Part shown: positions 30,944 through 62,259 of the stretch, in pieces | How the letters are laid out: every line of letters starts with the position of its first letter | Numbering within the stretch: position 1 is the first letter of the stretch | NCBI RefSeq assembly: GCF_029952525.1 | Contig: NZ_JASAOF010000002.1 | Span: forward strand, 248,001 to 312,000 | Source: Saccharopolyspora ipomoeae | GTDB lineage: Bacteria; Actinomycetota; Actinomycetes; Mycobacteriales; Pseudonocardiaceae | Direction: 5' to 3' | Length of the DNA: 64,000 bases | Translations under genes and position numbers: made by a program | Notes under the pieces: model-generated | The model's input: only the letters and a program-made list of their open reading frames with translations | The model's database searches: none | Told to the model about the DNA's origin: nothing

Positions 30944-31516
30944 TCATCCGCACCGGCACTCGTCATCGGCCATGACCGCTTGCCTGAGCTGCCCGAACTC
31001 CGCCGCCAGCGTCGCCGCCGACCAATGCGCGTTCAGGCCACTGGGATTGGGCAACACCCACACCCCGGCCTCACCGATCGTCCGATCTTGCCTACCGAAC
31101 GTGGCGCGCTTGGCTCCGAACGCCGCCCGGTAGGCGGTGATGCCCACGACCGCCACCCACTGCGGCCGGTACCGCGCGACCTTCTGCGCCAGCACCTCGG
31201 CCCCGGCCGCGAGTTCGTCGTCGGAGAGATCGGCGGCCTTCGCGCTCGCCCGCGAGACCAGGTTCGTGATGCCCAAACCCAGCCCCAGCAGCTCCGATTG
31301 CTCCGAGGGGGCCAGCTCGCGCGGGGTGAAACCGCTGGCGTGCAGCACCGGCCAGAACCGGTTGCCCGGACGCGCGAAGTGAAAACCCGTGGCACCCGAC
31401 CACAAACCCGGGTTGATCCCGCAGAACAGCACCGTCAGATCCGGCGCCAGCACATCCCCGATCGTGGCCCCGCTGGCGGCTTCCAGTTCCTGCGCACTCG
31501 GCCGGTCACCCGACAA
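30944..31516 (-). CDS. mug: G/U mismatch-specific DNA glycosylase (Mug)
   Basis: 190 residues from TTG at 31516, which has GGAGGTAGG upstream; the frame allows earlier GTG starts. Uracil-DNA glycosylase superfamily, Mug branch: active-site TVLFCGINPGLWSGATGFHF, middle HASGFTPRELAPSEQSELL, GITNLVSRASAKAADLS and the late motif WVLPNPSGLNAHWSAATLA. It removes uracil or thymine mispaired with guanine. Stand-alone gene upstream of a long Pro/Gln-rich gene, downstream of argG on the same strand with 160 bases between. Confidence 0.9.
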   Translation of the reverse strand: MSGDRPSAQELEAASGATIGDVLAPDLTVLFCGINPGLWSGATGFHFARPGNRFWPVLHASGFTPRELAPSEQSELLGLGLGITNLVSRASAKAADLSDDELAAGAEVLAQKVARYRPQWVAVVGITAYRAAFGAKRATFGRQDRTIGEAGVWVLPNPSGLNAHWSAATLAAEFGQLRQAVMADDECRCG

Positions 31517-31677
31517 CTGACCTACCTCCCCGTCCCCGGTTGTTCCACGGACCCTAACCACACCACCCGCGGGCCCCGAAGGCAGCGCCCCCGCACGCGC
31601 CACCACCGGGCGCCAATGCGATCATGGCCGCCCGCGCGGTGCGACCCGCGCGAACGGCCATGACGTGAAAACCCAGG

Positions 31678-35973: not shown

Positions 35974-36155
35974 ACACCGCCCACCGCGATCCTCAGCTCC
36001 AGTTCATCACCCCCGAGGGTGTGGTGTGTCCGCGCTCGTGGTGAAGGCGCCGGGCAGATTCCGCTCCAGTTCCACCCGCCCACCAACTAATTACGTCACT
36101 AACGTTATGGAACCAACGAAACGGAACTCTGACGAGGGAAAACGGACAGAAGGGA

Positions 36156-36183
36156 GGCGCGCATAATCGCGCTTATGTGCGGT
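36156..36183 (+). other. dif-like recombination site before the recombinase gene
   Basis: Structure 11-6-11: GGCGCGCATAA, TCGCGC, TTATGTGCGGT. The left arm equals the XerC arm of E. coli dif (GGTGCGCATAA) in ten of eleven bases, and the right arm begins TTATGT as XerD arms do. The arms are inverted repeats of each other (GCGCATAA/TTATGTGC, one mismatch). The site ends 11 bases before the start codon of a tyrosine recombinase, so it may be its core site, its operator, or both. Confidence 0.6.
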
Positions 36184-36194
36184 AAGATGGGATC

Positions 36195-37223
36195 ATGGAG
36201 ATTCAGGCGGCGGGTGGCGGCAGCTCGGTGGGCACGCGGGCGCAAACGGAACTGCTGGCCGCGACCACCCGCACCGGCCACACCCTCACCGCGCTGATCG
36301 CCTCCTGGCTGGGCTCGTTCACCGACTCCGCCGACACCCGCAGCGCCTACACCCGGGACCTGCGCGAGTACCTGGACTGGTGCACCCGCCGCGACCTCGA
36401 CCCGCTGACCGTGCGGCTGCCGGAGGTGCAGATGTACGCCGCTGAGCTGGCCGCCACCGCCAACCCGCGCACGGGCAGGCCCCCGGCGGCCTCCACCAGG
36501 GCGCGCAAGATCGCCGCGGTCTCCAGCTTCTACACCCACCTGGTGCGCGCCGGAGCCATCGACGCCAACCCGGCCCGTGATGCCGCTCGGCCCCGCTACG
36601 ACCGCCGGCACTCGCCGACCACCAGCGTTTCGGCCGAGCAGGCCTCGGTGATGCTGGCCGAAAGCCGCTCCTACCGGCATCGGACGCTGGGGCCGCAGGC
36701 CGCCGCGCTGGTGATGGCGCTGCTGATCGACCTGGGCGTGCGGGTCTCCGAGCTCTGCCACGCCGATCTGGCCGATCTCGGGCAGCGCGAGGGGATGCGG
36801 GTGCTCACGGTGCGGATGAAGGGCGGCAAGGTGCGCACCCGGCCCATCCCGCACGGCCTGCACGGGGTGCTCGACGCCTACCTGCAGCAGCGGCCCGAGG
36901 CCGACACCGATGCGCTGGTGATCACCCGGGACGGGCGGCGGGTCAACCGTCACCAGATCTACCGGCTCGTGCAGGCCCTGGCGGCCCAGGCCGGGGTGCC
37001 GATGCCGCAGCGCATCACCCCGCACTCGATGCGCCACACCTTCAACACCATCGCCCGCCAGCACGGCGCGGCCCTGGAGGACCGCCGCGACGCGCTCGGG
37101 CACTCCTCGGCGGCCATCACCCAGCTCTACGACCACGTGGCGCTGTCGCTGACCCGCGATCCGGCGCATCTGGTGGCCGAAGCGACCCGATCCCAACCGG
37201 ATTCATCCGAGCAATCCCCCTAA
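36195..37223 (+). CDS. Tyrosine recombinase / Xer-like integrase
   Basis: 342 residues, ATG at 36195. N-terminal SAM-like core-binding domain (about 33-135: AYTRDLREYLDWCTRRDLD, ARKIAAVSSFYTHLV) and catalytic domain with all residues: Arg183 (GVRVSEL), Lys212 (KGGKVR), His277 and Arg280 (HSMRHTF), His303 (LGHSS) and Tyr312 (QLYDHV). Compact like XerC/XerD, but the 28-residue N-terminal extension and lack of their usual neighbours suggest a third, independent recombinase. A dif-like site ends 11 bases before its start codon. No excisionase or phage gene is adjacent. Confidence 0.92.
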   Translation: MEIQAAGGGSSVGTRAQTELLAATTRTGHTLTALIASWLGSFTDSADTRSAYTRDLREYLDWCTRRDLDPLTVRLPEVQMYAAELAATANPRTGRPPAASTRARKIAAVSSFYTHLVRAGAIDANPARDAARPRYDRRHSPTTSVSAEQASVMLAESRSYRHRTLGPQAAALVMALLIDLGVRVSELCHADLADLGQREGMRVLTVRMKGGKVRTRPIPHGLHGVLDAYLQQRPEADTDALVITRDGRRVNRHQIYRLVQALAAQAGVPMPQRITPHSMRHTFNTIARQHGAALEDRRDALGHSSAAITQLYDHVALSLTRDPAHLVAEATRSQPDSSEQSP

Positions 37224-47582: not shown

Positions 47583-48620
<1,038 letters not shown>

Positions 48621-61350: not shown

Positions 61351-61378
61351 ACTTAACATAATGTGCATTATCGGCCTT
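61351..61378 (-). other. dif site for XerC/XerD chromosome dimer resolution
   Basis: On the - strand: AAGGCCGATAA, TGCACA, TTATGTTAAGT. The XerD arm matches E. coli dif (TTATGTTAAAT) in ten of eleven bases and the XerC arm keeps the GATAA/CATAA end. The 11-6-11 structure and the partial palindrome ATAATG-TG-CATTAT around the centre are typical. It lies in a gene-poor region. dif is normally single and near the replication terminus. Confidence 0.85.
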
Positions 61379-61950
61379 ACGGGGTGATGGGCCGATGAGG
61401 CTGAGAGGGGCGGCTGGGTGGCGCTTTTCGGTCTTTTTGGTGACCGGGGCGTCGCATGGTGCGGGCTCGTTCTCGTGTGCGGGCCGCCGGGTGGCGTTGG
61501 GTGCTGGGATGCGTGGTGCGGCGTTGCGGTGATGCGTCGGGCTGGTTGAGCGTGCGCGTCGTGATGTGCGGCGTGCTGTCTTCGCGGCTCCTGCGAACGT
61601 GCCTGTTGGGTGCGACTCAGACTTCTCGGCGGCGTGGTGGCCGGTGATCCCCCTGTCTCGGTCGAACCCTTATCGACCACTACTTACGTCACAGTGACGT
61701 ATTGGGGTTGGTCTGGCTGGACCTCGAAACAGTGGTCCGCGCAGGGCATTTGCACGTTGATGATCACGGAGCCTGATGAGTGCGGCTGATCGGAGTCGGC
61801 CGGCGCTTTCTGCATGGGCGCGTCGGAAGACAAGCGAGACCTCAGCGCGACTCGATGACGGGCCCTGAAGGTGGCCTGCGAGTCGGTTGAAGGACGCCTC
61901 GATCCCCCGGGGTAAGATCGGGCCGGTCGTCGGGCCATCACCCTGATTGA

Positions 61951-61970
61951 TGGATAACGTAGATTATCCA
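61951..61970. repeat. TGGATAA-N6-TTATCCA inverted repeat, dif-like geometry
   Basis: Perfect seven-base arms around CGTAGA. Extending to 11 bases gives TTGATGGATAA and TTATCCACGAA, which still match each other in nine of eleven bases. The ATAA-N6-TTAT core is the one found in dif and in the site before the recombinase gene. Confidence 0.5.
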
Positions 61971-62259
61971 CGAAATTACAAGATCAACTTACAGATCTGG
62001 TTGTGGCCCAGCGCGTTCCAGCGATCCGGCCGGACCACCCCACTGCCGTCATGAGGGCTCCGCGACTCCCGCGAGCCCTTCCCGCTCTCCGTCCCGGTCC
62101 AAGCTCCCACGCGCCGCTCCCCTCCGCTGAGACCCGACCCCGACAGCAGGTCGAACGCGGGTTCGATTCCTGCGGGTTCGCGGGCGGGCCTAAAGGCACT
62201 CCCCTCCTCCTGCGGGCGGTGGATGCTGGAGGTATCACTCCTTCTTCGGGGAGGTCGTC

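Follow-up and report, generated by a model that had tools for sequence, protein, structure and literature searches.

What does a dif-like site do when it stands directly ahead of the gene for a solitary tyrosine recombinase? The question arises in the window, i.e., the whole stretch of 64,000 nucleotides from Saccharopolyspora ipomoeae that was analysed. Here a 28-bp core (36156..36183, + strand; an arm of 11, a centre of 6 and a second arm of 11) reads GGCGCGCATAA-TCGCGC-TTATGTGCGGT, and an intact reading frame for a 342-residue recombinase (36195..37223, + strand) begins with ATG at 36195, 11 bases past the core end. This arrangement had been pointed out in a first-pass annotation of the same DNA, and both the sequence and the ORF list agree with it; pattern scans and alignment delimit the core, while the ORF, its domains and its orthologues define the gene as the probable dedicated partner of the site. 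As also stated there, no phage, excisionase or plasmid gene is found among the adjoining ORFs, judged by eye and, for some neighbours, by family searches. The left arm is identical at 10 of 11 positions to what we take to be the XerC arm of Escherichia coli dif, which is unimportant since the window genome's own dif has different arms. A scan allowing up to three mismatches shows the core to be unique in the 6.63-Mb genome (47 contigs).

Self-regulation of the recombinase, a single-recombinase Xer-like system, and the edge of an element had been put forward as readings of the locus. The second is well supported by the co-distribution of gene and site, the conserved and near-identical arms, the varying centre, the location at the terminus, the spacing of a flanking box and the copies of the arms on plasmids. 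Based on these genome comparisons, recombinase and site are probably the two parts of an Xer/dif-like system at the replication terminus that has one dedicated recombinase and exists apart from a retained XerC/XerD/dif system.

Recombinase and site as a pair

The Pfam domains of the protein, Phage_integrase and SAM-like, are those of a two-domain tyrosine recombinase, and R183, K209, H277, R280, H303 and Y312, which we take to be the catalytic six recognised earlier, are invariant in 23/23 orthologues. Against the NCBIfam equivalog models it scores 133.8 bits for XerD (cut-off 329.6) and 131.8 bits for XerC (cut-off 335.15), and thus falls below both, as it does for the XerS model (66.6 bits, cut-off 267). 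The top-scoring PDB chain is XerD 1a0p, and the XerH chain 5jjv gives 29.1 bits, a value that refers to that chain alone and not to a family model. In a midpoint-rooted tree, where the tree tool flagged long branches among the relatives, the recombinase group is placed apart from XerC, XerD and a further recombinase, rec3 (99/97). Nine comparisons of the gene give dN/dS values of 0.15–0.39, and support purifying selection acting on it.

Homologues at E ≤ 1e-30 are present in 51 of 390 Pseudonocardiaceae genomes, and a clear orthologue group with 72–100% identity in 23. The holders are 17 of the 22 Saccharopolyspora genomes and six genomes from four other genera, among them Halopolyspora, Halosaccharopolyspora and Actinoalloteichus. 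When the 390 genomes were scanned with the site pattern CGCRCATAA-N6-TTATGYGCGGT, the matches without mismatch fell in exactly these 23; of the other 367 genomes, one (G178) has a single match with two mismatches and 366 have no match. The pattern was derived from copies adjacent to the promoter of the gene, and it predicted the copies in G359, G361, G203, G204, G084, G004 and G005. No second chromosomal copy was found at the exact arm pattern in any of the 23 genomes, and with one exact-pattern site per chromosome, no recombination product or rearrangement between sites was found either. Gene and site are both missing from five of the 22 Saccharopolyspora genomes. In two of these (G345 and G355), the gene order from dif to a DNA-glycosylase gene is kept while gene and site are gone, and neither a remnant nor a precise empty site was found there. 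Taken together, the comparisons support a dedicated pair of recombinase and site on which purifying selection acts.

The core lies directly ahead of the gene in 16 of the 23 genomes. In 15 of these it is identical except for two outer left-arm bases, with G211 diverged; since the flanks drift in the meantime, the agreement of the core is more than chance. Comparison of the two arms with each other gives 10 matching positions of 11 for the consensus (ACCGCGCATAA and TTATGTGCGGT) and 8 of 11 for the copy in the window, which has GG at the outer end; in the scanned genomes, the two arms of dif match at 4–6 of 11. Across lineages the arms are constant, and the centre takes the forms TCGCGC, TCGAGC, TCAGGC, GTACGC, GTGCGC, GGACGC and TCCCGC, the first being that of both Actinoalloteichus genomes and of 15 among the 16 copies next to the promoter.

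Displaced sites, promoter and accessory box

In the other seven orthologue genomes the core is located elsewhere, at 1.9 kb from the gene in G359, 2.1 kb in G203, 3.2 kb in G204, 16 kb in G361, 20 kb in G004 and 26 kb in G084, and on a separate contig in G005. Homologues with no site upstream had been named in the first-pass annotation as an observation that would refute its reading. Such homologues do exist, in these seven genomes, but a genome-wide pattern scan located the site elsewhere in all of them; the supposed absence of the site is thereby overturned, and the reading is changed rather than abandoned.

The displaced copies bear directly on the proposal that the palindrome serves as nothing more than a transcriptional operator, at which the recombinase or another regulator represses the gene. 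A TANNNT motif begins at the last base of the core in 16/16 promoter-adjacent genomes, which in the window is TAAGAT (36183..36188, + strand), judged by its conservation to be the probable −10 hexamer of a leaderless promoter, and an ATG or GTG is found 11 bases past the core in 15 of the 16 (the exception is G362). A protein bound to the 28-bp palindrome would be expected to block RNA polymerase at this position, which agrees with an operator. At the seven displaced sites, however, TANNNT is absent in 7/7, while the site and its flanking box survive off the gene; moreover, the same arms occur on plasmids that lack the gene, and constant arms around a variable centre are what sites of strand exchange show. 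With seven of 23 genomes having the site away from the gene's promoter, the site must be more than an operator, and we regard an operator as its sole role, largely refuted by these copies, as unlikely. A contribution from autoregulation is nevertheless plausible, and indeed likely, in the 16 promoter-adjacent genomes: in most Saccharopolyspora the site abuts the promoter, and bound recombinase would probably repress its own gene. The earlier idea of self-regulation retains its value to this extent, but it can only describe part of the role since site and flanking box persist off the promoter in seven genomes.

As for the surroundings of the displaced sites, gene and site in S. rosea (G361) are separated by eleven genes predicted with a simple GC3-based caller, none of which matches a window gene, and the site still adjoins the DNA-glycosylase gene that it also adjoins in G353 and G351. 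In the window, this syntenic neighbour beyond the far side of the site is a G/U mismatch-specific DNA glycosylase gene (30944..31606, − strand), assigned by synteny and a family search. When the 5-kb neighbourhoods of six of the seven displaced sites were compared by blastn, the core region was matched over 26–76 bp in 10 of 15 pairs; four pairs gave no match, core included, and one pair gave only a 24-bp match off the core. The other stretches in common were a 392-bp gene piece (G359/G004), a 293-bp stretch (G359/G203) and a few short, weak ones.

The flanking element, which we refer to as the accessory box, reads AACGTTATGGAACCAACGAAAC in the window (36101..36122, + strand) and ends 33 bp before the core. 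It was recognised by its conservation beside the core, the seven displaced sites included, and has a consensus close to AACGTTACNAACCAAACGAAAC, to the left of the core. The spacing between box and core is 32–33 bp in 20 of the 23 genomes, as would be expected for a cer-type site with an accessory sequence on one side at a fixed distance. In two genomes the spacing is 11 bp, which brings the box about two helical turns nearer at 10.5 bp per turn, and in G211 the box is doubtful: it lies 43 bp from the core with a score of 14 of 21, which two places in the window attain by chance. Scored on the sequences on which it was defined, and hence in a partly circular manner, the best box beside the site reaches 15–21 of 21 at 22 sites, compared with 9–12 in the 300 bp ahead of each of the seven displaced genes and at most 14 in the rest of the window (site region hidden, one strand scanned); this circularity weighs less on the spacing and on the occurrence of the box at displaced sites. 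Where site and gene are apart, as in seven genomes, the box accompanies the site rather than the gene.

A reaction scheme can be proposed from these features. Each of the nearly identical 11-bp arms would be bound by one recombinase protomer, and a pair of sites occupied in this way, for example in the fused-dimer state of sister chromosomes or in a plasmid multimer, would synapse. Strand exchange would take place in the 6-bp centre, which need only match its partner, with dimer resolution as the predicted outcome. A host protein bound to the box, at a fixed distance, would probably control synapsis, similar to the accessory sequences at plasmid cer. In single-recombinase Xer systems, dimer resolution in vivo is usually controlled by FtsK.

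The replication terminus

With dif used as the terminus marker, the site is located near the terminus. The canonical actinobacterial dif of the window (61351..61378, − strand) lies 25 kb from the site, and was identified with a pattern scan that finds one copy in 21 of the 22 Saccharopolyspora genomes; the dif of the remaining genome (G356) was recovered with a relaxed pattern. The distance between site and dif is 11–63 kb in 20/20 genomes that have both on one contig (thus excluding G356, G363 and G005), and the order is dif, recombinase, site in all 20, with the gene pointing to dif, although these positions largely represent one inherited arrangement and not 20 independent observations. A malate dehydrogenase gene (47583..48569, − strand; synteny and family search) serves as a syntenic marker between recombinase and dif. 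A possible partial exception to the single inherited arrangement is Actinoalloteichus, where the malate dehydrogenase match is absent, rec3 is only ~50% identical to that of the window genome, and the gene–site pair lies at most 36 kb from dif. The Actinoalloteichus recombinase is 70–76% identical to those of the Saccharopolyspora/Halopolyspora-type genomes compared, and nests in their tree; the gene beside the site is a feature common to Actinoalloteichus and S. rectivirgula. This suggests that the Actinoalloteichus pair may have been acquired by transfer.

The pair does not stand in for XerC and XerD, since XerD-type and XerC-type proteins, as well as dif, are present in 22/22 Saccharopolyspora genomes. 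The XerD-type protein is over the model cut-off in 20 of these, and within a bit of it in the other two; a second protein, with 254–278 bits on the XerD model, is taken as XerC. The five genomes that lack the pair still have both proteins. In the window genome, XerD scores 340.4 on the XerD model, which is over the cut-off, and the XerC candidate has its best score on the XerC model (301.6, under the cut-off of 335.15). The site might instead be a second dif for ordinary XerC/XerD, with the neighbouring recombinase unrelated to it, and the 11-6-11 layout, the ATAA...TTATG core in common with dif and the location at the terminus are as such a site would have them. Its distribution is not: XerD- and XerC-type proteins are present in every genome of the genus, yet the site occurs only in the 17 with the recombinase, and the arms match each other better than do those of dif, both in the consensus and in the window. 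A second XerC/XerD site is rejected on the distribution, and we consider it very improbable.

A third Xer-like palindrome, TTGATGGATAA-CGTAGA-TTATCCACGAA (61947..61974, no strand assigned), was located by pattern scans 0.6 kb from dif, and is linked to rec3. Its general form is close to GATGGATAA-N6-TTATCCATC, and with up to two mismatches 91 of the 390 genomes of the family have it, 87 of them in one copy and four in two. The rec3 recombinase is present in 215 of the 390; by a hand tally, all 91 palindrome genomes have rec3, and 0/175 genomes without rec3 have the palindrome. At four loci in other genera (G064, G019, G217 and G068) the palindrome lies 0.28–0.64 kb from dif, and the rec3 match starts ~55–355 bp past it; in the window genome rec3 is on another contig, and the palindrome is still at dif. 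A short stretch near dif (window 62150–62190) resembles the 3' half of a tRNA by eye, and ARAGORN finds no tRNA in the window.

Plasmid copies and known systems

The arms recur on plasmids. A 14.7-kb contig of G360 (G360:C8), with identical 94-bp overlapping ends and a ParA-type protein, has the site ACCGCGCATAA-TCCCGG-TTATGTGCGGT with all 22 arm bases, and neither of two recombinase searches gave a match on it. On the circular plasmid NZ_CP134056 (18 kb), an identical set of 22 arm bases surrounds the centre ACCCGG; this plasmid has no annotated recombinase and no match to the window recombinase. An 85.5-kb plasmid of S. pogona has a near version of the site. The chromosomes of G360 and S. 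pogona (G351) have the recombinase, and a site with a centre other than that of the plasmid. Plasmids thus apparently borrow the chromosomal system: with the same arms and another centre, they would be served in trans by the enzyme of the chromosome and would not integrate. Neither of the two small plasmids (G360:C8 and NZ_CP134056) has the chromosomal box next to its site, and on S. pogona plasmid 2 the resemblance is limited to AT-rich repeats of a loosely similar kind. The two small plasmids have a left flank of ~32 bp in common (L116 9650–9709 and L156 15069–15128) that is unlike the chromosomal box, and is perhaps a plasmid-type accessory sequence.

Larger plasmids carry relatives of the recombinase, at 52% in S. 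pogona and 43% in Micromonospora, each preceded by a small gene and, ahead of that, an ATAA-N6-TTAT site, and the S. pogona plasmid with the 52% relative has phage-like genes (RecT and a lambda-type exonuclease). This arrangement, in which small plasmids lack a recombinase and larger ones have a relative of their own, is similar to a small-plasmid/large-plasmid division that has been described for Xer (PMC5357621, in part). Among seven distant homologue loci, an ATAA-N6-TTAT site is nearby in four (G375, G374 and the S. pogona and Micromonospora plasmids), and none is found within ~8 kb in three (G217, G214 and G068); a general pairing with a site across the wider recombinase family is therefore not upheld. 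In genus g23 (G213–G218 and G220), homologues of ~33% lie 64–113 kb from dif in genomes of 10–13 Mb, on the same contig in 7/7; they point away from dif, have no nearby site in the two scanned, and are not counted as support. A scan of IMG/VR gave two contigs, neither of which changes the reading. In one of them (L178 11719–12577), a site of its own, CCCGCACATAA-CTGCAA-TTATGTGCGCC, lies ~0.4 kb from the gene of a distant tyrosine recombinase (31%), and the other has no detectable recombinase. A similar palindrome, CCGCGCATAA-TTCCGG-TTATGCGCGG, is found on two Streptomyces plasmids (L180 and L181, 3999–4026), with no annotated recombinase within 4 kb.

The relatives on the S. pogona and Micromonospora plasmids, each with its own site, would also fit an old integrative element or plasmid near the terminus, in which the recombinase was the integrase and the site is an attachment remnant that is not maintained. 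The hint of transfer in Actinoalloteichus, where the pair nests in the tree of the others despite a rec3 of such low identity, points the same way. Such a remnant is, however, difficult to reconcile with purifying selection and with a site that is kept even apart from the gene. In the genomes compared, the chromosomal backbone is kept on both sides, and the absence of a second exact-pattern chromosomal copy leaves the site unpaired. On these grounds the element edge proposed in the first-pass annotation is rejected, and we regard an unmaintained old element as quite unlikely for the present state of the pair, whereas it may well be its origin.

Returning to a dedicated single-recombinase system, we tentatively extend it to a broader proposal, which may or may not hold: three parallel Xer-type systems would lie within ~26 kb of one another at the terminus, namely XerCD/dif, the rec3 palindrome and the present pair, the last as a chromosomal cer-like system with its own accessory complex that serves plasmids in trans. 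If so, dimer resolution or terminus unlinking in Pseudonocardiaceae would be divided among several dedicated recombinases. From the plasmids, whose arms are identical and whose centres differ, one would predict a rule for the sharing of an enzyme between replicons without fusion, and the gene–site pair is a possible new orthogonal tool for site-specific recombination in actinomycetes.

Among the matches listed from the open-licence PMC literature, no second Xer/dif system and no dif study of Saccharopolyspora is described, as far as titles and the first lines of abstracts tell. The available passages of PMC3025954 have no mention of Saccharopolyspora, those of PMC4210621 have one sentence on dif, and a term search of PMC2731167 returned nothing. 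The 11-6-11 layout, the ATAA...TTATG core and the match to XerD 1a0p relate the pair to XerC/XerD/dif, from which it differs by scores of ~130 bits, where the cut-offs are near 330, and by its separate branch in the tree. ColE1 cer and related plasmid sites are acted upon by XerCD with ArgR and PepA (PMC5357621, in part). The present system has in common with cer a core with an accessory flank, and small recombinase-less plasmids that would rely on the chromosomal enzyme; unlike cer, it has another recombinase and a putative other protein at the box, and the compound site is on the chromosome itself.

The closest parallels are found among systems with one recombinase. In streptococci and lactococci, XerS acts alone on difSL, a site immediately beside its gene, and replaces XerCD (PMC5357621, in part). 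The single recombinase and the dif-like site adjoining the gene are features of the present pair as well, but XerC- and XerD-types and dif are also present here, and the centre is 6 bp compared with 11 bp in difSL. XerH/difH of Helicobacter and Campylobacter is likewise a single-recombinase system that replaces XerCD, with imperfect inverted arms and a site near the gene (PMC5357621, in part). These features recur in the present pair, which is an addition to XerCD and not an alternative to it, and the sequence relation to XerH is weak. XerL/dif of Legionellales was described where no other dif/xer had been found, and a plasmid link has been reported (PMC9765430, in part); single recombinase, dif site near the terminus and plasmid link are thus similar, whereas XerL stands alone and the present pair accompanies XerCD/dif. 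XerS, XerH and XerL, the single-recombinase systems that we found described, replace XerCD, and an extra system that is maintained independently beside XerCD/dif raises the question of why a circular chromosome retains two or three recombination systems at its terminus. By its low scores for the XerS model and the XerH chain, the pair does not belong to either family; since it accompanies XerCD where they replace it, it would be a variant of the single-recombinase Xer systems, new in accompanying rather than replacing XerCD.
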